IMG/VR virus record: IMGVR_UViG_3300033153_013547
Span: 62,001 to 126,000 of that record
Length of the DNA: 64,000 bases
Strand: one strand, 5' to 3'
Source of the DNA: a virus
A program made the translations under genes and the position numbers. Shown in pieces: positions 7,556-21,342 of this stretch. How positions within the stretch are numbered: position 1 is the stretch's first letter; each line of letters starts with the position of its first letter. The notes beneath the pieces were generated by a model, which was not told the origin of the DNA, ran no database searches, and worked only from the letters and a program-made list of their open reading frames with translations.

Positions 7556-10315
7556 TTATTTCTGTTGTTTTCCTCCTTGAAGTTGTCTCAATACTTCTTC
7601 CCAGTTGACATCATCTTGATGTTTTCTGAGAATTACCTTGGCAATTATCTGGGGTAGCCTGGTATTTCTTACTCTGGCTTCTTTCATCAGAGCATCCACA
7701 ATTGCTACTCCTTTGTCTGTTTTCAGCATAGGACAGAAACCTATATTGAGAACAGGTTGAACCAGTAGTGATGCATCATCTTCATTGATGTTTTGCATCA
7801 GCAACTCATCATACACTTTTCTTGCCAACAAAACACCCAGTGATTCTTTGGATTGTCCATCTCCTATGAACAGAAGATTGAAGAACCACTTAACCTTGGC
7901 AATTACTTCTTGTTTGGTTGCTGGAATGGGATTTAGCTTATCAGCAATATCCCATATTTCTACTTCTTTGGGTTCCCAGCCTATACCTGCTTTACCAAAG
8001 GTACCTGTGTGTTCTTTGATAGTTTCCAGGTCTGTGGGAACAAACAATACATGATCCCCATCATTGTCTGTGGCATCACACACATATGGTTCTCTTGATC
8101 CATTTCTGGGATCTATTGCTCCAAGCAGTAGAAAATCTCCTTCACCAAGGGCATGCTTGCAGTGTTGGATGATGGTTACATCAATAGCTCCTTGAAATCT
8201 AGGAGCCTTTTTCTGTAATGCCAGACTAAACTTCCCATCCTTTGGGAAATGAGGCATATTGGCTGCCACAAAATTGATTCTTATACCTGCTTGGCTTGCT
8301 ATTTTGTGTAGTTCTGGGTAGTGATATTCTAAAAATGCTTGTAGTCTGTTAGGATCTGATCTGTGGAATCCTATACATCTGGCATAGAATCCTTTTCTGC
8401 CCAAACATCTGAAAGCCATTCTGGCAATCCGTCTTTGTCCACGGGGGGATGTATCTTGTTTTGCTAGGTGTCCTGCATAGACCTGTAGTCCATAAATCTC
8501 ATCTATTTCTGTGATGAGATCATCTACCTCTGTAATTCCCAGTAATTGTTGGGATACATCTGGCATTACATCTCCAAACCATCTGGCAAGTTCTGTTGGA
8601 GCCTTGACAGGAACAGTCAATCCACCTGTAGCTAAATTGGCAATTCTAACTAGGTGGATTTTATCAGTGTCCACAATCTTTCCATCATGGACTTCGAAAT
8701 TGAGACGATCCAGCAGCTTTTTGCCATCTGTTGTCATCAACTTTCTGGTATATGGGCCATCTCTCAAAACACCAGAAATGGGCACAGGTGGTTCAGCCAA
8801 TGCTGCCACAATGACTTTGGGAACTATACAACCACGTAGGTTGTCTAGCTCTACAACGTCAGGAAGACCATATTTAGCCACTCCTGGACGTAAGCAATCA
8901 GCATTGTTGTGGCTGAATACTACCTTTATACCCCTTTTACGGAGTTCTTCAAGGTCTGGATGGTTCCAGTTTGAAACATCCAGAATGGTAACCTTGCCGC
9001 CCCAACCAATCTTGCTGGCTTTGACGCGGCATTTGATTTTCATAGCAAACGTATGGACTGGAATTACTCCCAGTCTGTTTCTGTCATCTCTGAATTTACC
9101 TGGGAGCATTGTGCACCTAACGTGCTGTGGCTGATCCCAGGACAGCAATTCCATACGTCTTCGTGGAAATCTGATGACGGTCTGGTTGATTTCATCATCA
9201 AATTCCCAATCTTCTTTATCGTTATCTAAATGTAGAACATCCAGCCTTGGACGGCTGAATATCAACTTTCCTCCTTCTTCTCTGATCTCAAAACTGGGGA
9301 TTCTGTCTGGCGACTCCCCTGCGCCAGGTGTTCCAGCAATAGTACGTAGTAGCACAAATTCCATTTCGTGCCATTTTCCTAATGCTGAATCACTGTCGAT
9401 CACCACGCACATTCTGTCGTGGTCCAGATCGACATCTGCCACGGTTCCTGATGCTACAAGAACGGGCCCCACTTCCATGTGGGTTTTGATAACGGAGACC
9501 TGGTGTAGTTCTCCGTTTCTAGTAGATTGTCCGCCATCCTTGGCGAATCTTCTGGGGTTGTATAGGCTATAAAACTCTTTCCAGTCCTTATGACGGGTAT
9601 CAACCAAGATTCCCTCGTATCTTGGTTGCATTAGAGGACCTGGATTTTCCCCGTCACAGATCCACTGTTGAACTGACATTGGCAGACCTCTGAACCTTTT
9701 ATCACCCATTCTTACAATGGGTTTGAAGGTCTTGTCCCCTGAAATGGGGATCAATACATGGCTGCCATCTTTGCCAAATTCAAATACTGCTGGTTTGCCT
9801 ATGATTTTGCACGTAAGATTGGCATAATTCCCACGTGGATTTGCCATAGAAATCATATCCAGAACCAGCAGTAGAGCCTTGATCTTGTCATCAACTGGCA
9901 ATCTGGCAAAGGGTTGCATGAACCAGTCAATGAACCTTTCTGCTGACAACACCATCTGTTGCCCTTTGTGCCAAAATAGCACATGAGCAGCAGAGTAAGT
10001 GTCTTTTGTTCCTTGAATTAGCAGACACTTGCCATTGGCAACTTTGCTAATTGCAGGAACAAACCAAACCATCTTTTTCTTGACAAATCCAGGGACATTA
10101 TTTCCAACAATATGAAACTTTCCTGGACCAAGGTGTTTAGACCAGAATTCTTCTGAATCTCTGATGGTCTGGTTGTCAAAAACAGTTTGTTGCTTGCTTT
10201 GTGGAAGAAACCATTGCTTGGCTACCTCCACAAAATCAACTGTATGACTTGTGAATAATTTCACAAGCCATTGAACAATGTCTAGCACCAATCTGGTGCT
10301 GAATTTACACTCCAT
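7556..10315 (-). CDS. large protein with DxDGD motif, candidate divergent two-barrel RNA polymerase
   Basis: 919 residues, starting ten bases after GAGGAG. D750-N-D752-G-D754, in the context CDATDNDGDHVLFVPTD, matches the DxDGD metal-binding signature of the second double-psi barrel in two-barrel RNA polymerases (QDE-1, YonO and multisubunit beta-prime families). About 310 residues upstream, K432-A-S-K435-I-G-W-G-G-K441 followed by VTIL recalls the lysine pair of the first barrel. The spacing suits a single-chain enzyme. The rest shows no domain I recognise. It heads the adjoining minus-strand block. If correct it would transcribe phage genes without the host polymerase. The motif is seen; the fold and role are inference. 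Confidence 0.45.
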   Translation of the reverse strand: MECKFSTRLVLDIVQWLVKLFTSHTVDFVEVAKQWFLPQSKQQTVFDNQTIRDSEEFWSKHLGPGKFHIVGNNVPGFVKKKMVWFVPAISKVANGKCLLIQGTKDTYSAAHVLFWHKGQQMVLSAERFIDWFMQPFARLPVDDKIKALLLVLDMISMANPRGNYANLTCKIIGKPAVFEFGKDGSHVLIPISGDKTFKPIVRMGDKRFRGLPMSVQQWICDGENPGPLMQPRYEGILVDTRHKDWKEFYSLYNPRRFAKDGGQSTRNGELHQVSVIKTHMEVGPVLVASGTVADVDLDHDRMCVVIDSDSALGKWHEMEFVLLRTIAGTPGAGESPDRIPSFEIREEGGKLIFSRPRLDVLHLDNDKEDWEFDDEINQTVIRFPRRRMELLSWDQPQHVRCTMLPGKFRDDRNRLGVIPVHTFAMKIKCRVKASKIGWGGKVTILDVSNWNHPDLEELRKRGIKVVFSHNNADCLRPGVAKYGLPDVVELDNLRGCIVPKVIVAALAEPPVPISGVLRDGPYTRKLMTTDGKKLLDRLNFEVHDGKIVDTDKIHLVRIANLATGGLTVPVKAPTELARWFGDVMPDVSQQLLGITEVDDLITEIDEIYGLQVYAGHLAKQDTSPRGQRRIARMAFRCLGRKGFYARCIGFHRSDPNRLQAFLEYHYPELHKIASQAGIRINFVAANMPHFPKDGKFSLALQKKAPRFQGAIDVTIIQHCKHALGEGDFLLLGAIDPRNGSREPYVCDATDNDGDHVLFVPTDLETIKEHTGTFGKAGIGWEPKEVEIWDIADKLNPIPATKQEVIAKVKWFFNLLFIGDGQSKESLGVLLARKVYDELLMQNINEDDASLLVQPVLNIGFCPMLKTDKGVAIVDALMKEARVRNTRLPQIIAKVILRKHQDDVNWEEVLRQLQGGKQQK

Positions 10316-10955: not shown

Positions 10956-11050
10956 AGCAAACAGCGTACATGTTGTTAGCATTTTACATATTTATAGCTT
11001 ATTGATATAGTAGCCTTCGTTACTCTTTCTCTCCCCTATAAGAACGGAGT

Positions 11051-11083: not shown

Positions 11084-11091
11084 TGGGATGG

Positions 11092-11445
11092 TTACTGTGT
11101 GATGACACGAGTTTCTTGGACTGTGTTGGCTTCGCAGGCTTTACGAAGCCTTTCCCCATCGTTCTGGGAAATGGTCTCGATCAACTTTGCCACTTTGGTA
11201 GCGGTCTTTTTGTCGACTGGAATCCACTTTCCGTTGTCGGGGCGACGAATTCGGATATCGAATCCGTCAGGACTTACAGTAACCATGATGCTGGTTTTGG
11301 AATCATTGGAATTGAGGAAGAAAAACCAGTTAACCTCCTTGTTCCCTGTCAAGCGGATGCCCCCGCTGTTGGCATTGAAATCTCCGACGGGGAACAACCC
11401 CTTTGGGCTGTTGTCGATGATTTCCACGTTTTTAAAGTAGCTCAT
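11092..11445 (-). CDS. hypothetical protein, 117 aa
   Basis: The ATG at 11445 follows GGAGTGTGCGTT. The protein is strand-rich (NWFFFLNSND, TSIMVTVSPDGFDIRI) with a C-terminal helix (KTATKVAKLIETISQND). The beta-then-helix layout resembles a single-stranded DNA or RNA binding fold, but no motif supports that. It has its own terminator. Function unknown. Confidence 0.72.
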   Translation of the reverse strand: MSYFKNVEIIDNSPKGLFPVGDFNANSGGIRLTGNKEVNWFFFLNSNDSKTSIMVTVSPDGFDIRIRRPDNGKWIPVDKKTATKVAKLIETISQNDGERLRKACEANTVQETRVITQ

Positions 11446-11476
11446 AACGCACACTCCTAAAAGTTTGTTTGTCACG

Positions 11477-11677
11477 CACATCCCGTGACATAGTCTTCAG
11501 GACGAACTGCGGCTTGGCCTAGCCCCGAGCGTTAGCGAGCCCAGGAGAAGAAATGGGAGAGGTCTGACTACCATTAAAATATAAAACATGTCAGACCTGA
11601 AGGGTTCCTATTTCTTCGGATGGGTGTAGGGCTAGGCCAAGGGAGAGCAGTTTGTCACAATGTATGTCACGGATGTG
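11477..11677. repeat. nested four-layer palindrome, about 200 bp
   Basis: Four inverted-repeat pairs are nested around one centre: 11477-11491/11664-11677 (CACATCCCGTGACAT, one extra base), 11513-11525/11629-11641 (CTTGGCCTAGCCC, perfect 13 bp), 11548-11554/11610-11616 (AAGAAAT) and 11561-11568/11590-11597 (GGTCTGAC). No gene fits. It could be a structured RNA, a cruciform or a replication or packaging site. Confidence 0.7.
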
Positions 11678-11682
11678 AGATC

Positions 11683-11744
11683 GTCTAAAGTTGCGCTAGT
11701 CTCCTTTCTTTTCAAATAAATAAGTGGCTAGCGCAACTTTAGAC
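11683..11744. repeat. perfect 17-bp inverted repeat, 28-nt loop
   Basis: GTCTAAAGTTGCGCTAG at 11683-11699 is exactly complementary to 11728-11744. The loop is pyrimidine- then A-rich. It immediately follows the nested palindrome, and together they fill most of the gap between the two minus-strand gene blocks. From 11745 to 12051 I see nothing convincing; a 63-codon plus-strand frame there has no binding site. Confidence 0.75.
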
Positions 11745-12051
11745 ACCTTATGGATGTCTTTTTGACTTAGAAAAGGCGGTCAGAAATAGAAGAACCTTTC
11801 TCTATCTCCCCCCACCTGGAGAATTGCAAAATTGTCAAAAAGCATCATTGTGTAAACTACAAGCAAGTAATGTGCTACTTATTCTTAGATTGTATCATAT
11901 TGTTCTTAGATTATGCCACATCCTGAACTCAAAGCAAAACAGGGGGCATAGACGTGTTGTATGTGCAGAAGGCGATGGTCTGCCGAAGGCAACACAATGT
12001 AATATTATCTATTAAAGTTGCCCTCAGCAGACCCATCAACATCAATCCAAG

Positions 12052-12222
12052 CTAATCACTTGGGAAAATGGGATACCGTGGATCATCCAGATCCTGGGGG
12101 GGGTCTTCCACTTCATAATGTGGACACCCATCACAATCTGGGCCTACGATATCCGTCAAGCCACACACCGACTCGTTGTCGGATAGGCTAAACCACAGAT
12201 GGACACAGGCCTCTTTTTCCAT
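12052..12222 (-). CDS. small acidic protein, 56 aa, last gene of the island
   Basis: The ATG follows GGAGGAAAGAG. The product starts MEKEACVHLWFSLSDNESVC, has a DCDGCPHYEVED segment with two closely spaced cysteines and a histidine, and ends in an acidic, proline-rich tail. The cysteines (CGL, CDGC) could bind metal. It has a leader-element copy upstream (12231-12321). Function unknown. Confidence 0.6.
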   Translation of the reverse strand: MEKEACVHLWFSLSDNESVCGLTDIVGPDCDGCPHYEVEDPPQDLDDPRYPIFPSD

Positions 12223-12230
12223 CTCTTTCC

Positions 12231-12321
12231 TCCTTCAAGAAAGAATCACTATGCATTCATCATGGCACAATGTAGCTTCATGGCCACCAGCTACTCGGCC
12301 AAGCAGTTTAGTCACGAGGAT
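12231..12321 (-). repeat. leader element, copy a
   Basis: Leader of the 12052 gene. Hairpin 1 (12272-12294) is GTAGCT/AGCTAC. Hairpin 2 is degenerate (ACTATG in place of GCCATG). Hairpin 3 is replaced by a TTCTTTCTTGAAGG segment. The upstream end carries the GATCCTCGTGACTAAA-type boundary that overlaps the stop of the preceding gene. Confidence 0.8.
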
Positions 12322-12631
12322 CTATAACCCCTTCGATTTCATAGTCATCAACCTCTTCGATTTCACGGTCATTATTATAATCATACGAAACTTCATCGAT
12401 CCCCACCCTGAAGAGTGGGGATCCTCCACCACACGCGTCGAGGAACGCCATCTTTACCTGATGGGGATTTTGCCAATCATCATCAGGTTCGATGATCTTA
12501 ACCCCCCGTGTACTTGCAACAATACGGCCACCGATCTCATCAATGGCAAGAAACGCAGGCTTGCCATCATCGGTAACCGACATGAATGCCCCATATGTTA
12601 AATTGAAGTAGTTGTTAAAAAACAGATTCAT
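12308..12631 (-). CDS. hypothetical protein, 107 aa
   Basis: AAGGAGGAAGAG directly precedes the ATG. The N-terminal part is beta-like with a glycine-rich core (FLAIDEIGGRIVASTRGVKI); the C-terminal 30 residues are very acidic and tyrosine-rich (DYNNDREIEEVDDYEIE). It ends in DPRD, as does the 12732 product, because the leader repeat overlaps the 3' end. No family recognised. A leader-element copy lies immediately upstream. Confidence 0.7.
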   Translation of the reverse strand: MNLFFNNYFNLTYGAFMSVTDDGKPAFLAIDEIGGRIVASTRGVKIIEPDDDWQNPHQVKMAFLDACGGGSPLFRVGIDEVSYDYNNDREIEEVDDYEIEGVIDPRD

Positions 12632-12634
12632 CTC

Positions 12635-12747
12635 TTCCTCCTTAGAAAGAAATCATCACACTTTCGTAGTGATCAAGTGATCGGATGATCACACGTAGCT
12701 TCATGGCCACCAGCTACTCGGCCACACAGCTTTAGTCACGAGGATCC
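12635..12747 (-). repeat. leader element, copy b (variant type)
   Basis: Leader of the 12308 gene. Hairpin 1 (12695-12717) is GTAGCT/AGCTAC. Hairpins 2 and 3 are replaced by GTGATC-ATCC-GATCAC and a CACT-ACGAA-AGTG stem. The same variant occurs at 17471-17577, so two leader types coexist. Confidence 0.8.
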
Positions 12748-12887
12748 AGATCCAACTCAGGATCCAGATCCAAGACATCAACATCAACCCCCCATCTGCA
12801 ATCTTGTTGATAAACAAGATCGCACTCTTCTCCCTCGGAAAGGAGGCAAGTTATGCCATCCTTCCCTAGGTATTTGCATTTTTTCAT
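12732..12887 (-). CDS. small cysteine-rich acidic protein, 51 aa
   Basis: The ATG at 12887 lies after GGGAGAAGAAAA. The first half holds four cysteines (MKKCKYLGKDGITCLL, EECDLVYQQDC) that could form a zinc knuckle; the second half is an aspartate-leucine repeat (DVDVLDLDPELDLDPRD). The longer open frame upstream is leader repeat, not coding. Function unknown. Confidence 0.6.
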   Translation of the reverse strand: MKKCKYLGKDGITCLLSEGEECDLVYQQDCRWGVDVDVLDLDPELDLDPRD

Positions 12888-12901
12888 TTTTCTTCTCCCT
12901 T

Positions 12902-12982
12902 GCCCCAAAGCACAACTCTTTGGGGCAAATCGCCATGCATTCATCATGGCACAATGCAGCCACAGTGCTAACGGCTGCTCAG
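12902..12982 (-). repeat. leader element, copy c
   Basis: Leader of the 12732 gene. Hairpin 3 (12903-12925) is CCCCAAAG/CTTTGGGG, hairpin 2 (12932-12950) is GCCATG/CATGGC, and hairpin 1 (12956-12978) is GCAGCC/GGCTGC, changed on both sides relative to copy a. Confidence 0.85.
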
Positions 12983-12990
12983 CTAAAATG

Positions 12991-13956
12991 TTAAACAGGC
13001 ACAATCGAGTCGCTTCCTGCCTGCAACCTGCGCCTGTTTCCCAACACGATCCCCTCTTTCGTGTTGGCGTAGCAGTAACTGCAAAGGTGTGGGCAGGTGT
13101 TATATTGCCCGATGTCTTTGCTGGCAGCGCATCCGCAGATGCGCCGCTGCCCTGAATCTTTCAGTCCGGCTGGAGTGCCGAAAAGTTTCAGCAGTGCCGG
13201 ATCATTATTTGAGATTCGGAGCAACAGCTCGTCATCGATACATTTGTTTGGCTCGATGCTTGGTTGCTGAAGATCGAGCGGCTCGGCGCAAGTCGCCAAT
13301 TTTAGCCCCCATTGCTGATTCAATCTTACCAAACCTGAAGCTGTCTCACGCATTAAAAATGGTGTGAAATCGAGCCATTTGACGCCCTTTGCCTTTAGGT
13401 TGTTTCGGACTTTACCATAAGCGTCCATATAACTGAAAACCAACTTTTCCGTATATGGATGCAATTGGTCGCCCACTCGTTTAACCTTTTCGAGAAGTCG
13501 CTCAACATTGAGCTCTTCTGTTAAGATTAGAGGATCGAAACGCCAAATCACTCTATGCTTGCCAAGACGGTTGGACAACTCTTGGAATGATTGAATGCGC
13601 GACTCCAGAGGCGGCACATTCGGTTCCAACGCGCCGCCATGGTCTGCGACATAGTCGTTGACCGTGAACTGGAAATAGTAGGCGACGCCTACTTGATCCA
13701 GCTTTTTAAGGTGTTTCATCAAGGGTTTTGGATTCTTACTCCAAAAAACGATGGCGCGCATACGCTCAAAGGAAACAAACTGGGATTTCCCATTAAAAGG
13801 ATTAACCCAGCGTGAATAGCCTTCTTCGAGTCGTCGCATAAACCAATCAGAATAAAAGGCTGGAATATCGGTAGATCGACTAGCCGATATAACTTCCGGC
13901 GCCACAGCCGTATGCACTCCACTGGATGTGGAGATTTCAGTTCTTTTCCACCTCAT
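12991..13956 (-). CDS. DUF1848 family protein, 321 aa
   Basis: Full-length match to the DUF1848 family pattern: an early VISASRSTDIPAFYSDWFM block, an IVFWSKNPKPLMKHL block, YYFQFTVNDY, and a C-terminal cysteine cluster (RRICGCAASKDIGQYNTCPH, then CSYCYAN) that in the family is thought to hold a metal or iron-sulfur centre. The biochemical role of the family is unsettled. It starts after GGGAGAGTAG. It sits in a minus-strand block of nucleotide- and ADP-ribose-related genes with a leader element upstream. Confidence 0.88.
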   Translation of the reverse strand: MRWKRTEISTSSGVHTAVAPEVISASRSTDIPAFYSDWFMRRLEEGYSRWVNPFNGKSQFVSFERMRAIVFWSKNPKPLMKHLKKLDQVGVAYYFQFTVNDYVADHGGALEPNVPPLESRIQSFQELSNRLGKHRVIWRFDPLILTEELNVERLLEKVKRVGDQLHPYTEKLVFSYMDAYGKVRNNLKAKGVKWLDFTPFLMRETASGLVRLNQQWGLKLATCAEPLDLQQPSIEPNKCIDDELLLRISNNDPALLKLFGTPAGLKDSGQRRICGCAASKDIGQYNTCPHLCSYCYANTKEGIVLGNRRRLQAGSDSIVPV

Positions 13957-13968
13957 CTACTCTCCCTA

Positions 13969-14048
13969 CCCCAAAGCACAACTCTTTGGGGCAAATCGCC
14001 ATGCATTCATCATGGCACAATGCAACTTCATTGCTATCAGTTGCTCAG
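13969..14048 (-). repeat. leader element, copy d
   Basis: Leader of the DUF1848 gene. Hairpins 3 (13969-13991) and 2 (13998-14016) match the consensus. Hairpin 1 (14022-14044) is GCAACT/AGTTGC, a second double compensatory change relative to GTAGCT/AGCTAC. Confidence 0.85.
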
Positions 14049-14057
14049 CTAATTAAT

Positions 14058-14582
14058 TCACCAATTCTGTTGAACAAACGCCACAATGGCGTCAAAGGTG
14101 TTTAGATCAACATCTTTGACGCCATTGTTGCCAATGATGGTCAACGGAATCCCCAGGCCAAGGGCAATCCTTATCCCCTGGCCTGTACCACCAAGGCCCC
14201 GTTTGTTAGACGGAGCAGCAATTACAGAATCACAACCAAAAATGATTCTGTAATTCCTTCCGTGCAACTTCCTTGCCCCCATAGACAAATATCCTGGGGC
14301 AGGATGATATTTGTCAACGGAAGCAAAGGCCGCCTGGTCGCTCATGGACAAAACATGAACGACCTTGCAAAGGCCCTGGATTTGAGAATTGTACGACGGC
14401 CACGGCACATGACCTTCAGTACTTATTCCCAAATTTCTGGCATGCTCGATGGCAACTTTGTCAATACCATCAGCGCAGCCAGAGACAACTACAGACCCTT
14501 TATCAAGAGATTCTACAATCTCTCTGACAATGCGGATCTGGGGACCAGAGGGGTCTCTGGTCCCTATCACAGCAATCTTCAT
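14058..14582 (-). CDS. SLOG-fold (LOG/DprA-like) nucleotide-binding protein
   Basis: 174 residues beginning MKIAVIGTRDPSG, then VVSGCADGIDKVAIEHARNL, the classic SLOG-superfamily pattern (DprA, LOG, DUF2493/YspA groups) in which these loops bind a nucleotide or NAD-like ligand. A conserved GLGGTGQGIRIAL stretch follows near residue 130. Such proteins occur widely in nucleotide-signalling defence and counter-defence loci. The start follows AAGGAGAAAAGGA. The ligand is unknown; a phage role in sensing or removing a host signal nucleotide is inference. Confidence 0.78.
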   Translation of the reverse strand: MKIAVIGTRDPSGPQIRIVREIVESLDKGSVVVSGCADGIDKVAIEHARNLGISTEGHVPWPSYNSQIQGLCKVVHVLSMSDQAAFASVDKYHPAPGYLSMGARKLHGRNYRIIFGCDSVIAAPSNKRGLGGTGQGIRIALGLGIPLTIIGNNGVKDVDLNTFDAIVAFVQQNW

Positions 14583-14589
14583 TCCTTTT

Positions 14590-14666
14590 CTCCTTCAAAA
14601 AAGAATCGCCATGCATTCATCATGGCACAATGTAGCTTCATGGCCATCAGCTACTCGGCCAGGCAG
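14590..14666 (-). repeat. leader element, copy e
   Basis: Leader of the SLOG gene. Hairpin 2 (14608-14626) is GCCATG/CATGGC and hairpin 1 (14632-14654) is GTAGCT/AGCTAC. Hairpin 3 is replaced by a TTCTTTTTTGAAGG-like segment, as in copy a. Confidence 0.82.
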
Positions 14667-14673
14667 ACAATTG

Positions 14674-14934
14674 TTAATGAACAATCACTCCATCTTTCAC
14701 CCTTCTTAGGGCAAAGATGAAGTCATCGCCTTGCATATAGACGATGACCTTTACATCCGAGGTGTCGAAACACTCTATACTGGTCTCGACAAATTTTAAG
14801 GGATCGTTAAGGTACGCATCAGCGTCATTAACATCCAGCACCCATGTGCCGGTTATCGGGAGCCTAAACGCCTCCCGAATGATAACATGTGATCCCGGAC
14901 TTGCCGGGATCGTGGGGTATATAATTCTCCTCAT
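14674..14934 (-). CDS. hypothetical protein, 86 aa
   Basis: The ATG at 14934 has GGAG with a six-base spacer; the ATG two codons earlier overlaps the binding site. The protein (MRRIIYPTIPASPGSHVIIR) has alternating strands and ends in a beta hairpin (VKVIVYMQGDDFIFALRRV). No family recognised. It is preceded by leader-element copy f. Confidence 0.65.
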   Translation of the reverse strand: MRRIIYPTIPASPGSHVIIREAFRLPITGTWVLDVNDADAYLNDPLKFVETSIECFDTSDVKVIVYMQGDDFIFALRRVKDGVIVH

Positions 14935-14948
14935 CCCCATCTCCTTTG

Positions 14949-15034
14949 CCCCAAAGCACAACTCTTTGGGGTAAAATCGCCATGTATTCATCATGGCACA
15001 ATGTAGCCTTATGACTATCGGCTGCTCAGTCAAG
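14949..15034 (-). repeat. leader element, copy f
   Basis: Leader of the 14674 gene. Hairpins 3 (14949-14971) and 2 (14979-14997) are intact. Hairpin 1 (15003-15025) is GCAGCC/GGCTAC, with one C-A mismatch, the only copy with an imperfect first stem. Confidence 0.82.
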
Positions 15035-15039
15035 AGAAC

Positions 15040-15423
15040 TTAGGCAGAATCTCTGATCTTCATCAGGATCCTGCCCAGATGGTTCAGTCCAACTCCGTTG
15101 CTTACGCCCCAGAATTGGTCTCCCCACCAATTCTCTTCAACGATCTCCCCCTTTATGGCCTGAAGTTTGGCCATAAAGACAGGATCGCTGAACTTTTTAC
15201 TTACCAGATCCTCCATGATCTGGAGTTTGACCTGATCCCAGTCAGGCCTAAGCCTAACTGTTTTGCCAATCTTTTTGGCAATAAACCCGTTGGTCACACC
15301 AACGAATCTTGCCTGATCAGCAGGATCAGTACACTTTGCCTTCTGGTACTCCACCTCCACACAGTACCCTAACGAATTAGGACACATGTTGGACAGAAAC
15401 CAGAAGATGCCCCTGAATCTCAT
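15040..15423 (-). CDS. NADAR-family protein (YbiA-like, DUF1768)
   Basis: 127 residues that follow the NADAR pattern end to end: FWFLSNMCPN near the start, VEYQKAK, AKKIGKTVRLRPDWDQVK, IVEENWWGDQFWGV and GLNHLGRILMKIR. NADAR enzymes cleave N-glycosidic bonds in ADP-ribose-type or riboflavin-intermediate substrates, and some remove ADP-ribose from guanine in DNA. The ATG at 15423 follows AAGGAGGTGATT. It lies directly downstream of the macrodomain gene with no leader element of its own, so the two form an operon. A counter-defence role against DNA ADP-ribosylation is likely but inferred. Confidence 0.88.
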   Translation of the reverse strand: MRFRGIFWFLSNMCPNSLGYCVEVEYQKAKCTDPADQARFVGVTNGFIAKKIGKTVRLRPDWDQVKLQIMEDLVSKKFSDPVFMAKLQAIKGEIVEENWWGDQFWGVSNGVGLNHLGRILMKIRDSA

Positions 15424-15433
15424 AATCACCTCC

Positions 15434-15847
15434 TTAGTGATATATCTCAACATTCAGATCAAGATCAGCCAGTTTATCAGACATCATCTGCCTAACCACT
15501 GGCCAATCCAGACCTCCAAGGCCACATCCAAGCCTGGGGAAGGCTATGGACCTAAAACTCCAGGTTTGGGTGGCAAAATCATCAAGACCATCAGAGATAT
15601 ACTCCAATTTGCTTGGATCTCTCCAATGATCCTTGGTGGGGAACAGTAGAACATTCTCCACCAAGATGACCTTGCCAGGCCTTAGAATGCCTGCAGAGCA
15701 TAGCCTGGCATACTCTGCAAACACCATGGGAAACCTTGCTTTGAACTCCAAGGCAAGACCCTTGCCCATCACGCCAACACAGTTGACGGGATTGACAAGA
15801 ACCTCACATTTGGAATCAAACAGATCCCCCCGCAGCAACAACAACAT
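15434..15847 (-). CDS. macrodomain protein, DarG/TARG1-like ADP-ribosyl hydrolase
   Basis: 137 residues. N19-PVNCVGVMGKGLALEFK and the later FPRLGCGLGGLDWPVV match the macrodomain branch containing DarG and TARG1, including the lysine in the MGKG loop used for catalysis (K29 here). These enzymes remove ADP-ribose from thymidine in DNA or from glutamate in proteins. The start at 15847 follows AAAGGAGGAGGAG; the in-frame extension upstream is leader repeat. Pairing with a NADAR gene suggests that both ADP-ribosylated thymine and guanine are targets. Confidence 0.88.
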   Translation of the reverse strand: MLLLLRGDLFDSKCEVLVNPVNCVGVMGKGLALEFKARFPMVFAEYARLCSAGILRPGKVILVENVLLFPTKDHWRDPSKLEYISDGLDDFATQTWSFRSIAFPRLGCGLGGLDWPVVRQMMSDKLADLDLNVEIYH

Positions 15848-15859
15848 CTCCTCCTCCTT

Positions 15860-15963
15860 TACCCCAAAGCACAACTCTTTGGGGTAAAATCGCCATGTAT
15901 TCATCATGGCACAATGTAGCTTCATGGCCACCAGCTACTCGGCCAAGCAGTTTAATCACGAGG
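15860..15963 (-). repeat. leader element, copy g
   Basis: Leader of the macrodomain-NADAR operon. All three hairpins are intact (15860-15882, 15890-15908, 15914-15936; stem 1 GTAGCT/AGCTAC), followed by AAAGGAGGAGGAG. In this copy the sequence can be read in frame into the gene. Confidence 0.88.
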
Positions 15964-16155
15964 ATATCTGATGACATCATTCATGGTATCATGGTCAATA
16001 TCAGCAGATATCGTCTTGATTGCTTCCAACTTGATGAAAGCGCACAGAAGTCCCCGCACTTCTTCGATTTCATCAAATAAAATCTTGCTCCGATGAAAGA
16101 GCAAGACTATCGTCACCACAAGGGCGGCGATAATAATCGACATTAATAACAACAT
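15952..16155 (-). CDS. small membrane protein, 67 aa
   Basis: Starts at 16155 after AAAGGAGGAGGAG (an ATG four codons in is an alternative). A single membrane helix (MSIIIAALVVTIVLLF) is followed by a 45-residue cytoplasmic-type tail with a helical ILFDEIEEVRGLLCAFIKL stretch. It ends YPRD where the leader repeat of the next gene begins. Function unknown. Confidence 0.65.
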   Translation of the reverse strand: MLLLMSIIIAALVVTIVLLFHRSKILFDEIEEVRGLLCAFIKLEAIKTISADIDHDTMNDVIRYPRD

Positions 16156-16169
16156 CTCCTCCTCCTTTA

Positions 16170-16260
16170 CCCCAAAGCACAACTCTTTGGAGCAAAATCG
16201 CCATGTATTCATCATGGCACAATGCAGCTTCATGGCCACCAGCTACTCGGCCAAGCAGTT
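16170..16260 (-). repeat. leader element, copy h
   Basis: Leader of the 15952 gene. Hairpin 3 (16170-16192) has one changed base in its 3' arm as read on the plus strand (CTTTGGAG), hairpin 2 (16200-16218) is intact, and hairpin 1 (16224-16246) is GTAGCT/AGCTGC with a U-G pair. Confidence 0.85.
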
Positions 16261-16561
16261 ACTTCTTCTGCTTTTCAACCCATTCCTTTATCACGTCTCC
16301 GTGACAAGGGCTGGGTTTGCAAAAGCAGACAAGGGTCTTCCCATCAAGTTCAAGCACCCTCCTCTTGAACTCGGGGTCAGACCCCAATCTGCTCAGGAAG
16401 TACTCCCTATACTTAGGTAGGGAGCTACCCCCTGAGCCGGGGAATGGATTCCCAAAATATCCATCCATTCCCCTACCAGCCCTTCCTATGTAAACATAGG
16501 AAGGGTCATCGCGCCACCCCTTAGGGGCGTCGCGAATATTAATAACGTTGATAGGCAACAA
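16259..16561 (-). CDS. DUF4326 family protein
   Basis: About 100 residues. VYIGRAGRGMDGYFGNPFPG and the C-terminal LVCFCKPSPCHGDVIKEWV are the two hallmark blocks of DUF4326, with C-x-C and C-H-G-D residues. The family is common in phages and is presumed to act on nucleotides or to bind metal; its activity is not firmly known to me. The best start is TTG at 16561, five bases after AAGGAGG; a GTG at 16594 has no binding site. No leader element of its own. Confidence 0.82.
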   Translation of the reverse strand: MLPINVINIRDAPKGWRDDPSYVYIGRAGRGMDGYFGNPFPGSGGSSLPKYREYFLSRLGSDPEFKRRVLELDGKTLVCFCKPSPCHGDVIKEWVEKQKK

Positions 16562-16629
16562 AATCACCTCCTTTTGTTGCCGGTCAATCGACACGGTTTC
16601 GGCAGACCACGTGTCATTCTGCAGACAAA

Positions 16630-17070
16630 TTACATGAAATCTCCCACAATCAGGTCACCCTTCTTGTGGGAGATTTTCTTCCCCCTTGGTCGGGGCGCAG
16701 GCACCTTCTTGGCGGGCACCTTCTTGGCAGGTGCCTTAACCTCTCTGGGCCACTTGCAATAATGCTTGACTGGCCCAGAGGCAGGCCGCTCTGCTGTTGC
16801 TGCCACCACTTCCACAGCAACAGCCTTTTTCACAGTAGGCCCAACCACATCATGGATGAGCCTACTGCAACACAGCTGCTTCCTGAGACGAAGTATTGCC
16901 TCGCCTCCGTCCACGCCTGTGGGGATCGTGCCCCTCCAACCGGGAACACGTTCCCCGTTGAGGTAGGCTTCACAGTACTGAAGCCCACCCCTTTCAAACA
17001 GGGGGGAGAATTTAATCTTTACCCTCTTCCCCCCCAACAAAATGTCAGGGGGACGAATCAAATTAGGCAC
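16630..17070 (-). CDS. hypothetical protein with basic AK-rich tail, 146 aa
   Basis: A GTG start (17070) follows AAGGAGTGTGTTACT. The first 65 residues form a compact domain (VKIKFSPLFERGGLQYCEAY, then ERVPGWRGTIPTG). The last 45 residues carry an alanine-lysine-proline repeat (APAKKVPAKKVPAPRPRG), typical of nucleic-acid-binding tails. No family recognised. It is not preceded by the leader element. Confidence 0.65.
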   Translation of the reverse strand: MPNLIRPPDILLGGKRVKIKFSPLFERGGLQYCEAYLNGERVPGWRGTIPTGVDGGEAILRLRKQLCCSRLIHDVVGPTVKKAVAVEVVAATAERPASGPVKHYCKWPREVKAPAKKVPAKKVPAPRPRGKKISHKKGDLIVGDFM

Positions 17071-17143
17071 AGTAACACACTCCTTTCTGCCAGGTATATC
17101 CTGGATCAGATGAGCAGTTTATTGTCTTGCTCAGGACACAATG

Positions 17144-17464
17144 TTATAAACCAAGTTCCTCCCTGACACGATCCCTATTGACGGGATAAATGTTTATCTC
17201 ATCTATCCCATCAATAGAAACCCTGAACAATTGCCAGGGGCCCCCATCTGCTGGGATGAACCAGTATAGAGGATTATACCCCTTGGCTTCCTCAAACTCC
17301 TTCGCTGCTCTTCCGAACAGCGAATTCTTCCGGGGATTTTGTTGCCAAACTTCTCCCCAAATCTGCCCTATTGGCTTGGCAGATTTGAGCATCACCCCAG
17401 AAATGGTGGCTCTTGGTGCGGAGCAGACCGCCTTACGCACCAAGGCAATAATTTTCTCTTCCAT
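17144..17464 (-). CDS. hypothetical protein, 106 aa
   Basis: AAGGAGGAAAA precedes the ATG. The N-terminus is helical (EEKIIALVRKAVCSAPRATI); the middle is basic (NPRKNSLFGRAAKEFEEAKG); the end is strand-rich with WFIPADGGPWQLFRV. No family recognised. It has the variant-type leader (copy i). Confidence 0.65.
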   Translation of the reverse strand: MEEKIIALVRKAVCSAPRATISGVMLKSAKPIGQIWGEVWQQNPRKNSLFGRAAKEFEEAKGYNPLYWFIPADGGPWQLFRVSIDGIDEINIYPVNRDRVREELGL

Positions 17465-17470
17465 TTTTCC

Positions 17471-17577
17471 TCCTTAGAAAGAAATCATCACACTTTCGTA
17501 GTGATCAAGTGATCGGATGATCACGCGTAGCTTCATGGCCATCAGCTACTCGGCCATACAGTTTAGTCACGAGGGTC
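17471..17577 (-). repeat. leader element, copy i (variant type)
   Basis: Leader of the 17144 gene and nearly identical to copy b, including the GTGATC-ATCC-GATCAC stem. Hairpin 1 (17527-17549) is GTAGCT/AGCTAC. Its outer end again carries CCCTCGTGACTAAAC, although here the upstream gene does not reach it. Confidence 0.8.
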
Positions 17578-17645
17578 CAGAATGTCACCATGGCTTGTTG
17601 TCAGCCAGAAATGGCTTTCAACCCATAGACCAATGCCCCAACTGA
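17560..17645 (-). pseudogene. possible leftover 3' gene tail ending ...LDPRD
   Basis: Between the stop of the 17646 gene and leader copy i, one frame remains open and ends GDILDPRD-stop, the same tail as the 12308 and 12732 products. It has no start of its own. It looks like the end of a former gene that was replaced by the present neighbour through recombination at the repeats. Confidence 0.35.
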
Positions 17646-18611
17646 CTAAATTCCCCGTGCCCAGAGAGCGTTCCGGCGCGCTTCTTTTTCGGCGCGCGCC
17701 TTTTCAACTCGTTCGCGAAGCTCCGGGGGAACATAGCCCGGCGTGTCGGGCGGTTCCGTAGCAGACACCGTAAATGTCTGCAGGAAAACGCTCGCGTACT
17801 CTTCCACCTGTTCGAGGGACAGCTCGACCCCCGAACGCAGCTCTTTGGGCAACTGGTAATCCAGATCAACTTCCACCACTCTCTCGGCGTGAACCGCGAT
17901 GTGTGGCGGGAGGCTGCCTTGCGTGGTATAAACGTCCTTCCCCATCACGTCATCCACTGCGGCATTCTCCACGACTGGCGTTCCCTTTGTCACCAGTCCT
18001 ATTTTCTCCAGATACGTCACGAACGCCGGATGGCGCGTGACGATGATGTTCCCATTTTCCATGGGAACAATATCCGACGCCCTGAGCAAATCTGACGCGA
18101 TGAAAGAGTACGCCTTGAGCTCACCGCTCGCGTACTCTTCCACCTGTTCAAGGGTCAGTTCGACCCCAGAACGCAGTTCATCGGGTAAATCGAGCGTGAG
18201 CTCGATTAACTTTTCTGAATACACCGCCAAGTGCAGGGGAATATACCCCTGCGTGGTGTAAACAGACCTTAAGGGACCGAGAGGTATCCCCGTCATGTCA
18301 TGACGGCTCCGCACATTCTTGAGCCACGTCACACGCCGTGCGCTGCCGAATGTGTGGATCTTCGCAAAATAACGCGCCACTGCGAGGTGGCGCGAAACGA
18401 CAAGATCTTTCGGCGGATAAATCTCCACTAGTCGGACAACGCGCGACTCGCCCTCCTCCAGGTAATTCCCGTAGGAATCCTGGACGGAACCCGAGGCTAT
18501 CGTCGTTCGATAGCCGTGCTCGATATCTATGGGGCCGCACCGGCGACCCTTGAAGTCCCTGATTTTCTCAAGCCTAGCCTCATTCCAGGCTTGAAACTCC
18601 TTCTCATTCAT
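17646..18611 (-). CDS. tandem Csx16-like two-domain protein, 321 aa
   Basis: Two homologous segments, about residues 68-180 and 199-298, each run from a V-V/I-S/T-RH start through LP-x-HLAV-x-(A/S)E and LRSGVEL(T/S)LEQVEEYAS. The second (IIVTRHPAFVTYLEKIGLV) matches the adjacent 94-residue Csx16-like product; the first has lost the HPA residues (VVSRHLAVARYFAKI). Csx16 proteins accompany type III CRISPR systems and have been linked to cyclic-oligoadenylate ring cleavage. An N-terminal segment (ARLEKIRDFKGRRCG) and a charged C-terminal helix are extra. Starts after AAGGAGAGATTGAT. A phage anti-CRISPR role is inference. Confidence 0.6.
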   Translation of the reverse strand: MNEKEFQAWNEARLEKIRDFKGRRCGPIDIEHGYRTTIASGSVQDSYGNYLEEGESRVVRLVEIYPPKDLVVSRHLAVARYFAKIHTFGSARRVTWLKNVRSRHDMTGIPLGPLRSVYTTQGYIPLHLAVYSEKLIELTLDLPDELRSGVELTLEQVEEYASGELKAYSFIASDLLRASDIVPMENGNIIVTRHPAFVTYLEKIGLVTKGTPVVENAAVDDVMGKDVYTTQGSLPPHIAVHAERVVEVDLDYQLPKELRSGVELSLEQVEEYASVFLQTFTVSATEPPDTPGYVPPELRERVEKARAEKEARRNALWARGI

Positions 18612-18668
18612 ATCAATCTCTCCTTGCCCTGCACTAGCCGCGGCAGGGCTTCGCGGTTGTGTGTTACC

Positions 18669-18953
18669 CTATGCAAACTGCACGATGTACGCCACGGGCG
18701 TGCTGGCGTATTCGCGCACTTGCTCAAGGGTCAGCTCGACCCCCCTCATCTCCGCCGGAATATCCAGCGGAACTTCGATCACTCGCCGCGCATGCACGGC
18801 GAGCCGAAGAGGAAGAACGCCGAAAACGTTCTTCCCCATTACATCGTCGACCGTGGCATGTGCCACGATGGGCGTGCCTTCCGGCACTAACCCTATCTCG
18901 ATCAAATACGTCACCAATGCTGGGTGACGCGTAACAACAATACTTTTATTCAT
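18669..18953 (-). CDS. Csx16-like protein, candidate ring nuclease, 94 aa
   Basis: Short protein with VVTRHPALVTYLIEIGLV at the N-terminus, IVAHATVDDVMGKNVFGVLP in the middle, then LRLAVHARRVIEVPLDIPAE and MRGVELTLEQVREYA. This follows the Csx16 (VVA1548) family order: RHPGA block, GxLPxxLA block, LP-x-E-x-RG-x-ELS block. Typical family length is about 100 residues. It starts after AAAGGAGAAGAG. The gene upstream in transcription order has the leader; downstream is the two-domain paralog, 57 bases away. Known biology of the family suggests degradation of cyclic oligoadenylate signals; not shown here. Confidence 0.65.
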   Translation of the reverse strand: MNKSIVVTRHPALVTYLIEIGLVPEGTPIVAHATVDDVMGKNVFGVLPLRLAVHARRVIEVPLDIPAEMRGVELTLEQVREYASTPVAYIVQFA

Positions 18954-18966
18954 CTCTTCTCCTTTA

Positions 18967-19047
18967 CCCCAAAGCACAACTCTTTGGGGCAAATCGCCAT
19001 GTATTCATCATGGCACAATGCAGCCACAGTGCTGTCGGCTACTCAGC
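18967..19047 (-). repeat. leader element, copy j
   Basis: Leader of the Csx16-like operon. Hairpins 3 (18967-18989) and 2 (18996-19014) are intact; hairpin 1 (19020-19042) is GTAGCC/GGCTGC with one U-G pair. Confidence 0.85.
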
Positions 19048-19048
19048 T

Positions 19049-19233
19049 GTGGGGGGCGATCCTGTTTCGATGTTGACAGGATCCATAAAAAAAGAGAGAG
19101 GCCCGAAGGCCCCTCTCCGATGATGCCTATATTTCTCCTTTCCCGGCATCAGGGAGTTTCACCACTATGCAGGTGACGCATACATTTTGTTTATCCAGAT
19201 GTAAACTGGAATCCGGTTTTGAAAGGGGAGGGG
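19049..19233 (-). repeat. 185-bp duplicated spacer, copy 1, with terminator
   Basis: Nearly identical to 19786-19970. On the minus strand it holds, in order: a CCAG/CTGG hairpin, a 7-bp stem TGATGCC/GGCATCA whose loop displays AAAGGAG, a strong terminator, and an 8-bp stem GATCCTGT/ACAGGATC. The second copy has TGATACC/GGTATCA, a paired change, so the stem is probably functional. It lies between the 19235 gene and leader copy j. Confidence 0.75.
19087..19119 (-). terminator. rho-independent terminator (UUCG loop)
   Basis: On the minus strand GAGAGGGGCC-TTCG-GGCCTCTCTC forms a 10-bp stem with one G-U pair, followed by seven T. It ends transcription of the 19235 gene. Confidence 0.85.
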
Positions 19234-19234
19234 G

Positions 19235-19690
19235 TTACTCTATTATTGGGAGGACATCCCCTTCTTCAAAGTCATACTGCCACGGATCATAATCCGTGGC
19301 AAGACCAATTGCTGTGACCATGTCTTTTGCGACGATCACAGCAAACCCCTGAAATTCCTCGCCCCCATCGTAGGGGACGAGGAACCCCCCGGGTTCCTTT
19401 TCTTCCGGACACTCCGGAAGGTTGGGGGCAAGTTTTCTTGCCCCCAACTGAAGGGTCCTCCAGACGGAGGTTTTTACTCCGTCTAGAAACCCTGACTCCC
19501 CACGTAAAATGGGGTAAAACACGCTAGTCGCTGCAGCGGCCAGCGTGCTCGCTCCTCCGGCTCTCATGAGCCGGAAGTACGAAATATTGCCGCTAACAGC
19601 AACTGGGCACCACGTCCTGTGGAGGGGCAGACACTGCCCATACCCCTCCACAGGGCGTAAAAAGACCGATAGCCAAAAAATTTTAGCCAT
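19235..19690 (-). CDS. hypothetical protein, paralog of the 19972 product, 151 aa
   Basis: Starts at 19690 (GGGAG, six-base spacer). It shares MAKIFWLSV at the N-terminus, YFRLMRAGGAS, SVFYPILRGE, LVPYDGGEEFQGFAVIVAK and a DYDPW...DF tail with the neighbour at 19972. About half of positions are conserved, so the duplication is not recent although the flanking DNA is nearly identical. A conserved DYD-x-W-x-x-DF near the end may be functional. Family not recognised. It has leader copy k upstream and a terminator downstream. Confidence 0.7.
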   Translation of the reverse strand: MAKIFWLSVFLRPVEGYGQCLPLHRTWCPVAVSGNISYFRLMRAGGASTLAAAATSVFYPILRGESGFLDGVKTSVWRTLQLGARKLAPNLPECPEEKEPGGFLVPYDGGEEFQGFAVIVAKDMVTAIGLATDYDPWQYDFEEGDVLPIIE

Positions 19691-19704
19691 TCCCATCTCC
19701 CTTA

Positions 19705-19786
19705 CCCCAAAGCACAACTCTTTGGGGTAAAATCGCCATGTATTCATCATGGCACAATGCAACCACAGTGCTAACGGCTGCTCAGC
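19705..19786 (-). repeat. leader element, copy k
   Basis: Leader of the 19235 gene. Hairpins 3 (19705-19727) and 2 (19735-19753) are intact; hairpin 1 (19759-19781) is GCAGCC/GGTTGC with one G-U pair. Confidence 0.85.
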
Positions 19787-19970
19787 TGTGGGGGGCGATC
19801 CTGTCTCGATGTTGACAGGATCCATAAAAAAAAGAGAGAGGCCCGAAGGCCTCTCTCCGGTGATACCTATATTTCTCCTTTCCCGGTATCAGGGAGTTTC
19901 ACCACTATGCAGGTGACGCATACATTTTGTTTATCCAGATGTAAAAACTGGAATCCGATTTTGAAAAGGG
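19786..19970 (-). repeat. 185-bp duplicated spacer, copy 2, with terminator
   Basis: Second copy of the spacer at 19049-19233, following the 19972 gene. Differences are mostly compensatory: TGATACC/GGTATCA in the middle stem, and a perfect A-U where copy 1 has G-U in the terminator stem. Confidence 0.75.
19826..19858 (-). terminator. rho-independent terminator (UUCG loop)
   Basis: On the minus strand GAGAGAGGCC-TTCG-GGCCTCTCTC is a perfect 10-bp stem followed by eight T. It ends transcription of the 19972 gene. Confidence 0.87.
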
Positions 19971-19971
19971 G

Positions 19972-20442
19972 TTACCCTATTATCGGGATAATATCCCGAT
20001 AATCCGTAGCAAAGTCGTCTCGCCACAGATCGTAATCTATGGCGAGATCAATCGCCGTGGTCGCATTTTTTGCGACTACGACGACAAACCCCTCGAATTC
20101 GCCCCCATCGTAGGGGACGAGCACTTTGCAGAATACCCCGGAACGTTCCGGGATATCGGGGGCAAGCAAAGCTACCCCCACCTGCATTGTTCTCCGGACA
20201 AATGTTACCCACTTGTCTAGAGAATTTACCTCGCTCAAGAGCCAATCCGCATTTGTTAAAATGGGATAAAATATACTAGCCACTATAGCGGTTAGTATAT
20301 CCGCTCCTCCGGCTCTCATGAGCCGGAAGTGCGAAACGCCGTCGCTTTCAGCGACGACGTTCCATGACTCATTATCGGGGGGGTTTTCTTTAAACCCCTC
20401 GATCTTGTCGAGTAAAACTGACAGCCAAAAGATCTTGGCCAT
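19972..20442 (-). CDS. hypothetical protein, paralog of the 19235 product, 156 aa
   Basis: Starts at 20442 after AAAGGAGGAGGAG. It carries the same blocks as its neighbour: AKIFWLSVLL, HFRLMRAGGADIL, SIFYPIL, LVPYDGGEFEGFVVVVAK and a DYDLWRDDF tail, ending IIPIIG. The shared blocks suggest a globular alpha/beta protein without membrane segments. Function unknown. It has leader copy l upstream and the same spacer-terminator unit downstream, so gene and control region were duplicated together. Confidence 0.72.
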   Translation of the reverse strand: MAKIFWLSVLLDKIEGFKENPPDNESWNVVAESDGVSHFRLMRAGGADILTAIVASIFYPILTNADWLLSEVNSLDKWVTFVRRTMQVGVALLAPDIPERSGVFCKVLVPYDGGEFEGFVVVVAKNATTAIDLAIDYDLWRDDFATDYRDIIPIIG

Positions 20443-20456
20443 CTCCTCCTCCTTTG

Positions 20457-20536
20457 CCCCAAAGCACAACTCTTTGGGGCAAATCGCCATGTATTCATCA
20501 TGGCACAATGCAACTTCATTGCTATCAGTTGCTCAG
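20457..20536 (-). repeat. leader element, copy l
   Basis: Leader of the 19972 gene. Hairpins 3 (20457-20479) and 2 (20486-20504) are intact; hairpin 1 (20510-20532) is GCAACT/AGTTGC as in copy d. Confidence 0.85.
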
Positions 20537-20628
20537 CGTCATATCGCAGATTTCCTAACCGGTGTCTGCCAACCGGCCACAGCCAAAATAGTGACTGTGG
20601 CCACCGCCTACGTTGCGGAGGCGGTGGT
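20537..20628 (-). promoter_or_regulatory. three consecutive GC-rich hairpins
   Basis: On the minus strand, after the 20629 gene, come CCACCGCCT/AGGCGGTGG (9 bp), GCCACAG/CTGTGGC (7 bp) and a CCGGT/ACCGG stem, then leader copy l. No T-tract follows, so they may be RNA-stability or processing structures between the first and second genes of the island. Confidence 0.5.
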
Positions 20629-20835
20629 TTAAAACCCCCGAGCCTCAAGGTCGAGGCATATGTCTTCGTATGCCTCGACCTTGAGCTCGTCAGCAAGGGA
20701 ATCTAAATAACTCCCTTGCTGAACGTTGAGGCGTTCTACCTTGCGGCAGAACGCCTCAACAAGCTCAAGGCGACGATAAGGATTCTTGCAATCCTTAATC
20801 GCCTCCTTGAGCTTAAACAACTCAAGAAATCTCAT
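20629..20835 (-). CDS. small helical protein, 68 aa, first gene of the island
   Basis: AAGGAGGTGTTT precedes the ATG at 20835. The product is a charged helical protein (FLELFKLKEAIKDCKNPYRR, then LVEAFCRKVERLNVQQ, then acidic VEAYEDICLDLEARG). It is nearest the divergent control region and is therefore probably the first gene transcribed. Function unknown. Confidence 0.68.
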   Translation of the reverse strand: MRFLELFKLKEAIKDCKNPYRRLELVEAFCRKVERLNVQQGSYLDSLADELKVEAYEDICLDLEARGF

Positions 20836-21342
20836 AAACACCTCCTTCAACGACATAGGGCATCTATTTATACCCCTCTTTGGCCCTATCACAGAATTGT
20901 GTCCATCTTCGACCAGATGGAAGAATTACTCCCTTAGGCCATATAGTTTGGGGGTGGGCATCATCTGATAACTCCACCCCTAAACTATCATTCTGGTCAG
21001 CCCCCCAAAATTCATCACAGAATTGCCTTATAAACAGACAAAAAAATTGCCTCATGAACAAACAACATTCTTCATAGCTAGCTAGATAAAAACTAACTTT
21101 CAGTCAGTCTTCCAAAATTCACAAATTTACTCCTTCATTGAATGATCCATATACTATAAAAACTTTTTCTCAAACAACTTCTCAAAAAATATATGCAGTA
21201 ATAATTCCCATGTAAGGGCTAAAATAAAATCTCTCTCTGGCCTCCAAAATAAAATAATTATTATCTAATAAGGTAGTATAGATGGGTAGATGGGTAGATA
21301 TCCTGCCTTATTTACTAAAATAGGATTTACTTTTAATTAATT
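20836..21342. promoter_or_regulatory. divergent control region between minus island and plus genes
   Basis: About 500 bp without a gene, AT-rich, lying between the start of the minus-strand island and the first plus-strand gene, so promoters for both must lie here. A 15-bp stem with one G-U pair (20943-20957/20974-20988, ATAGTTTGGGGGTGG) lies on the island side. ATCACAGAATTG occurs at about 20888 and 21013. I cannot fix promoter boxes with confidence. Confidence 0.5.

Follow-up and report, generated by a model that had tools for sequence, protein, structure and literature searches.

Kilobases of coding sequence that fold beyond codon- or dinucleotide-shuffled controls are known from RNA viruses as genome-scale ordered RNA structure (GORS), and an H-type pseudoknot in a phage gene leader is known from gene 32 of phage T4, where it serves autoregulation. 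Structured RNA arising from phage coding sequence also bears on defense conflict in staphylococcal phages (cabRNA; PMC10686824), and a jumbo-phage survey (Iyer et al. 2021, PMC7824862) describes Macro, NADAR, SLOG-type, and DUF4326 genes set against NAD+ and nucleotide signals, with Macro, NADAR, and DUF4326 predicted to counter NAD+- or nucleotide-based defenses. A likeness to each of these is found in positions 62,001 to 126,000 of the IMG/VR record IMGVR_UViG_3300033153_013547, the 64,000-nucleotide stretch analyzed here (the window, whose coordinates are used throughout). It contains a block of 17 minus-strand genes (the island) whose coding sequences fold far better than their synonymous alternatives, and 12 of these genes are preceded by a copy of one leader RNA that appears, with good support, to begin with an H-type pseudoknot.

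Folding in this part of the window has a core, measured against synonymous-codon shuffles (which preserve both protein and codon usage), a downstream extension, and an upstream edge:

12052 to 20835, minus strand: 17 coding sequences whose folding greatly exceeds that of synonymous-codon shuffles (sense z between -2.3 and -15.4)
7400 to 12000, minus strand: hyper-structured region forming a weaker downstream extension, including a gene for a 919-amino-acid protein at 10315..7556 (mean minus-strand z -3.1)
20836 to 21342, no strand assigned: divergent intergenic region, presumed promoter region, where the structured block ends sharply on its upstream side (z about 0 beyond 20.95 kb)

All 17 island genes have z below -2, with a mean of -7.0 compared with -0.9 for 80 randomly chosen genes elsewhere, and the pooled 6.9 kb of island coding sequence reaches -0.423 kcal/mol per nucleotide versus -0.299 in synonymous shuffles (z -26.6). 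The median minimum folding energy difference (MFED; 120-nt windows) is 0.36 in the island, 0.22 at 7.4-12.0 kb, 0.09 at 0-7.4 kb (coding and intergenic sequence pooled), and 0.05 in the rest of the genome; it is 0.005 in sampled parts of Moorella phage MTATph1, and a comparable method gave a median of 0.0324 across 4,969 phage genomes (PMC11409064). Each 2 kb at about 8-22 kb contains 7 to 21 perfect inverted repeats of 8 bp or more; other parts of the genome mostly have 0 to 4. The 68-codon first gene contains perfect stems of 17, 13, and 11 bp inside its coding sequence, and the longest stems found are at most 20 bp. The folding profile starts abruptly at about 20.95 kb and fades over about 13 kb downstream, and the structured region coincides with a single run of same-strand genes, which are presumably transcribed from the divergent intergenic region. 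Pairing around start codons (-10 to +20) is about 0.51-0.55, versus about 0.7 within genes, which fits the expectation for translated messages. A preliminary description of this DNA had singled out the leaders as a folded RNA family; the family stands, and is unlike those of Rfam, but it is not an isolated device, since all 17 coding sequences fold too. The leaders are, on good evidence, the visible tip of an operon-wide folding pressure.

Coding hairpins of this kind were not found described in the open literature searched, coverage of which was incomplete. No comparable hairpin-rich island was found in MTATph1, and a macro-domain scan returned two distant loci, both free of excess hairpins. 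Within the window, hairpin density and folding are also moderately raised through the small minus-strand genes at 1-7400, and a single gene outside the block, at 61932-62600 on the plus strand, has strong coding structure (z -6.0 versus synonymous shuffles). A long inverted repeat, GTCTAAAGTTGCGCTAG / CTAGCGCAACTTTAGAC, lies at 11645-11745, in the intergenic space that separates the leader-bearing genes from those downstream.

In its full form, the leader consists of the H-type pseudoknot, then a 6-bp hairpin (hairpin 2), then an 11-12-bp hairpin (hairpin 3) placed directly against the ribosome-binding site. The 12 copies, each before its own gene, were identified by alignment, by a covariance model built from ten of them, or by both:

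20453 to 20537, minus strand: copy a (pseudoknot and hairpins 2 and 3), before gene 20442..19972; alignment and model
19702 to 19786, minus strand: copy b, before gene 19690..19235; alignment and model
18964 to 19047, minus strand: copy c, before the Csx16 gene 18953..18669; alignment and model
17487 to 17554, minus strand: copy d, second subtype (pseudoknot kept, hairpins 2 and 3 different), before gene 17464..17144; alignment and partial model match, 33.4 bits
16167 to 16251, minus strand: copy e, before gene 16155..15952; alignment and model
15859 to 15943, minus strand: copy f, before the macro (DarG-like) gene 15847..15434; alignment and model
14946 to 15030, minus strand: copy g (pseudoknot helix ACU/AGU; stem 1 with a single A-C mismatch), before gene 14934..14674; alignment
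14604 to 14659, minus strand: copy h, without hairpin 3, before the SLOG/DprA-like gene 14582..14058; alignment and model
13966 to 14049, minus strand: copy i, before the DUF1848 gene 13956..12991; alignment and model
12900 to 12983, minus strand: copy j, before gene 12887..12732; alignment and model
12655 to 12722, minus strand: copy k, second subtype, before gene 12631..12308; alignment and partial model match, 33.6 bits
12244 to 12299, minus strand: copy l, without hairpin 3, before gene 12222..12052; alignment and model

Much of what the preliminary description said of this family is borne out. A sequence search places the 12 copies where it had put them, before 12 of the 17 minus-strand genes; the division into ten copies and two of another subtype holds; the third stem is indeed missing from two copies (those at 14659 and 12299); and stem 1 has 6 bp with an 11-nt loop. 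Hairpin 3, at 11-12 bp, is longer than had been given. Statements about the leader on a genome-wide scale cover 260 kb of the 261-kb phage record. Searching that record (261,124 bases) with one copy yielded exactly 12 matches, all inside the island, and the covariance model recovered the 12 copies with no other credible match in the 260 kb; it found nothing credible in the Moorella phage, a Bacillus phage fragment, or the macro-domain loci. The layout had been said to match no known phage leader family, and Rfam agrees, with no match in the window above the gathering threshold and sub-threshold chance matches in the island that fall on none of the leaders. Exact-pattern scans of IMG/VR and GTDB genomes returned nothing for hairpin 2 or for the pseudoknot with its spacer, a scan for the hairpin 3 pattern gave one chance match within an unrelated coding region, and blastn of the leader against phages gave short chance matches only. 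No homologous island was found in the IMG/VR, GTDB, phage (INPHARED), or plasmid searches run.

The pseudoknot, which the first reading of this sequence missed, is well supported by a gapless alignment of the first 28 nt of the 12 copies, in which two helices appear to cross. Helix B is stem 1 (GCAACT/AGTTGC, GTAGCT/AGCTAC, or GCAGCC/GGCTGC; 6 bp); in helix A, three bases lying 2 nt upstream of stem 1 pair with three bases of the stem 1 loop, as GCT/AGC in five copies, GCC/GGC in six (extended to TGGCC/GGCCA), and ACT/AGT in one, so that this helix has 3 bp, or up to 5-6 bp in the GGCC type. The loops measure 2 nt (L1), 3 nt (L2), and 5 nt (L3) in all 12 copies, and such lengths around a 6-bp stem amount to classical H-type geometry. 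Across stem 1 and helix A, 98.6% of alignment cells are paired, and changes on both sides occur in five of the nine pseudoknot pairs (two of three in helix A, three of six in helix B). The covariation score of 0.464 compares with 0.269 +/- 0.047 in shuffles, none of 500 reaching the observed value, and drops to 0-0.23 when the partner is slid by 1 to 3 columns; the covariation first reported for stem 1 holds, that stem being scored with the pseudoknot helix. Hairpin 2 never varies and is uninformative in this respect, and hairpin 3 shows one-sided changes only, mostly via G.U. Three full leaders have folding z of -4.8, -3.3, and -3.1; two with other layouts (lacking hairpin 3 or of the second subtype) have -0.9 and -1.7. 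Copies d and k keep the pseudoknot with the downstream hairpins swapped, and copies h and l are without hairpin 3, indicating a modular leader with breakpoints at helix borders. The leader is thus a compact, apparently new pseudoknot module, and its 12 natural variants are available for structure probing.

The structure is well supported; its function we infer. Our tentative preference, held with slightly less than even confidence, is that folded messages shield early counter-defense transcripts from RNA-directed attack and that the leaders insulate ribosome-binding sites kept open. The leader alone could suggest something else: a site bound by an RNA-binding protein of phage or host, or by a phage-modified ribosome, and acting as a joint translational switch for 12 genes, with the coding hairpins having a separate cause. 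An element that recurs with unchanging spacing to the ribosome-binding site is what such a switch would look like, as are, wherever these hairpins are present, a near-invariant hairpin 2 with its ATTGT spacer and ATGAATR loop and a near-invariant hairpin 3 loop, AGTTGTG. The second subtype (d and k), however, retains the pseudoknot only, its hairpins 2 and 3 being replaced, and five operon genes do without the element altogether. Genes 18611 and 17070 are among those without a family leader, yet each has a strong pseudoknot before its ribosome-binding site that is unrelated to the leaders:

18616 to 18656, minus strand: H-type pseudoknot, CCGCG / GCCCTGC / CGCGG / GCAGGGC, before gene 18611 and adjoining its ribosome-binding site (0 of 100 shuffles as good)
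17105 to 17138, minus strand: H-type pseudoknot, TGTC / TGAGCA / GACA / TGCTCA, before gene 17070 (0 of 100 shuffles as good)

With no candidate binding protein known and the coding hairpins left unexplained, we consider a protein-binding switch unlikely. Pseudoknots are also the form taken by the RNA antitoxins of type III toxin-antitoxin systems, which phages are known to escape via mimics, and the leaders might by analogy be decoys for the RNase of a ToxIN-like host system. Yet they are single, dispersed, and fused to ribosome-binding sites rather than arranged as tandem repeats, and no Rfam match of any kind falls on them, which makes decoys extremely improbable.

Whether selection acts on RNA or on DNA can be approached through the mismatches that stems tolerate. 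The proteins of genes 20442..19972 and 19690..19235 are 50% identical, and in the stems of this paralogue pair, defined from Watson-Crick pairs only, one-sided changes leave 25 G.T and 6 A.C on the sense strand. Of the 29 two-sided differences, 18 bring back Watson-Crick pairing, the coding hairpins of the two genes staying paired through compensatory changes. Mismatches in stems within single sequences number 29 G.T versus 12 A.C in the native coding sequences and 26 versus 31 in synonymous shuffles. This sense-strand wobble asymmetry indicates that the mRNA, and not the DNA, is what selection acts on; the Csx16 paralogues show no clear wobble bias (17:11). The sense-minus-antisense energy difference was dropped as evidence of RNA selection, being proportional to overall scale (1.19 versus 1.18).

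The same asymmetry bears on a cause at the level of DNA, whether template-switch palindromes (quasi-palindrome correction), hairpins in single-stranded DNA, or recombination sites that shuffle cassettes. Most coding hairpins are perfectly Watson-Crick and fold nearly equally on the other strand, as such causes would have it, and the leader copies are modular, break where helices meet, and bring along the end of the gene before them. A DNA-level cause would not account, however, for the wobble bias in either comparison, for start-codon regions that are less paired, or for a structured region that is one same-strand gene run with a sharp upstream edge, and we judge it quite unlikely. The recombination unit proposed in the preliminary description is plausible in part: modular copies, helix-border breakpoints, and shared 3' ends of upstream genes speak for it, but it leaves the coding hairpins and the sense-strand wobble bias unexplained. 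The shared 3' ends are those of several unrelated minus-strand genes (near 12310, 12735, 15955, and 17580), which have CCTCGTGAYTAAACTG in common directly before a GCC-type leader and whose proteins end in PRD; it looks as if the leader was copied along with the tail of the gene upstream of it. As to an integron or another site-specific cassette array, repeats are present at cassette borders, and no integrase appeared among the proteins scanned, which represent part of the genes.

Two intrinsic terminators lie within the island:

19833 to 19858, minus strand: strong intrinsic terminator (UUCG loop, T-run) 3' of gene 20442..19972
19093 to 19118, minus strand: strong intrinsic terminator (UUCG loop, T-run) 3' of gene 19690..19235

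Near-identical structured units of about 150 nt stand before both (19833-19980 and 19093-19234, minus strand), each with a stem showing covariation between the two units (TGATACC/GGTATCA versus TGATGCC/GGCATCA) and with a possible pseudoknot. These features could belong to a transcriptional control in which leaders and duplicated units act in antitermination or attenuation, the polymerase of phage or host reading or stopping at each cassette on a signal, and it suits such a scheme that strong terminators lie directly upstream of leaders b and c with a near-identical unit before each. A terminator precedes only 2 of the 12 leaders, though, the leaders finish at a ribosome-binding site instead of a terminator, and folding within coding sequences goes unexplained, so that control of this kind seems very unlikely.

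The genes of the island suggest what its messages might be for. The record is that of a giant tailed double-stranded DNA phage, with genes for a portal, a tail protein, PhoH, ribonucleotide reductase, and a ClpB-like protease, and it also encodes DNA ligases, a helicase, and an RNA polymerase beta'-like subunit. Profile matches in the island are to a DarG-type macro domain, NADAR, Csx16, a DprA-like SLOG protein, DUF4326, and DUF1848, and by homology alone the block is most likely an anti-defense operon. The macro gene matches the PADLOC DarG profile at 3.3e-52 over residues 1-136, and a NADAR gene comes directly after it in translational coupling (15040-15847, minus strand). NADAR enzymes undo guanosine ADP-ribosylation of the DarT type, and macro and NADAR together would likely counter both DarT subfamilies from one transcript. 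Two genes with three Csx16/VVA1548 domains between them (PF09652 at 1e-14 and 8.7e-13; PADLOC Csx16 at 1.9e-13 and 1.3e-10) encode putative Csx16 ring nucleases. Csx16 is a demonstrated ring nuclease for cyclic tetra-adenylate (cA4), found in only 2 of 28,114 phage genomes (PMC12409355), and so acts against an RNA-sensing immunity. One of the two genes (17646-18611, minus strand) encodes a 321-amino-acid protein with two Csx16-like domains in tandem and adjoins the single-domain gene 18953..18669; to the single-domain protein, the second tandem domain is 64% identical and the first 41%.

The 919-amino-acid protein (7556-10315, minus strand), encoded where the structured block runs out downstream, contains DATDNDGDHVLFVP, which resembles the DxDGD metal-binding motif of two-barrel RNA polymerases and is preceded by a possible lysine motif (SKIGWGGKV); judging by motif, it is possibly a highly divergent single-chain (YonO-like) RNA polymerase. 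No homologue of it was detected in Pfam, PHROGs, PDB, or phages, and AlphaFold2, run without homologues, gave no usable model (predicted local distance difference test, pLDDT, 35). The portal protein, used as a query, finds only Bacillus phage KLEB27-3 and Moorella phage MTATph1 (25% identity), and IMG/VR scans with the portal, the RNA polymerase subunit, the 919-amino-acid protein, and PhoH found no relative. A phage nucleus was considered and is unsupported, neither a tubulin (PhuZ) nor an RNase III gene having been found in the phage's own record.

If folded messages do act as a shield, the leftward operon mRNA would have been selected to fold along nearly its whole length, coding sequence included, and a message packed with short hairpins would expose little single-stranded RNA to host ribonucleases specific for single strands. 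Folding would hinder CRISPR RNA pairing by type III CRISPR and type VI (Cas13) systems and would protect from HEPN and MazF/ToxN-type RNases; stems of at most 20 bp might, more speculatively, also limit cutting by RNase III. This protection would act early, while the phage shuts host defenses down, the island genes probably being early genes. The leader would separate cistrons, block degradation or nibbling and ribosome read-in from the upstream cistron, and keep the ribosome-binding site open beside a strong hairpin, presenting an unfolded start site. In its most complete version, synonymous selection would have made the mRNA of the whole anti-defense operon quasi-double-stranded, the pseudoknot leaders serving as its modular start units, and the result would be a passive and sequence-independent shield against RNA-targeting immunity; this version we hold to be doubtful, and say only that being packed with hairpins may help these messages to survive in a defended host.

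Several observations weigh against a protective function of folded mRNA. Most coding stems are perfect, so that both strands fold well; with antisense hairpins nearly as strong, the argument for RNA rests mainly on the wobble asymmetry, whose counts are modest, and the ratio of sense to antisense energy in the island is that of the shuffles (1.19 versus 1.18). All leader copies are paralogues within one genome and offer few independent events, about five double changes. The two strong terminators mean that the operon is not simply a single long message. Folding would also carry a cost, because structured phage RNA can trigger the cyclic oligonucleotide-based antiphage signaling system (CBASS; PMC10686824). 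If a shielding role is nonetheless correct, this would be a counter-defense carried by the mRNA itself and not by a protein, invisible to protein-based screens but detectable from sequence by folding coding regions, and it would offer a direct test of whether exposed mRNA is protected against RNA-guided or RNase-based immunity by DNA phages, among them phages that conceal their DNA.

Each of the closest known systems shares one aspect of this locus and differs in others. The pseudoknot leader of T4 gene 32 serves one gene and one autoregulator, whereas here 12 copies stand before unrelated genes, and the present leader has two extra hairpins, a different sequence, and no Rfam match. The survey by Iyer et al. 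(PMC7824862) concerns proteins and, in the parts used here, mentions neither a shared RNA leader nor structured messages. The cabRNA of staphylococcal phages (PMC10686824) is an immunity trigger and a single RNA from the terminase genes, neither operon-wide nor tied to anti-defense genes. In GORS, what folds is an RNA virus's own genome, whereas here it is one operon and its weaker tail in a double-stranded DNA phage, the rest of whose genome folds near the phage average.

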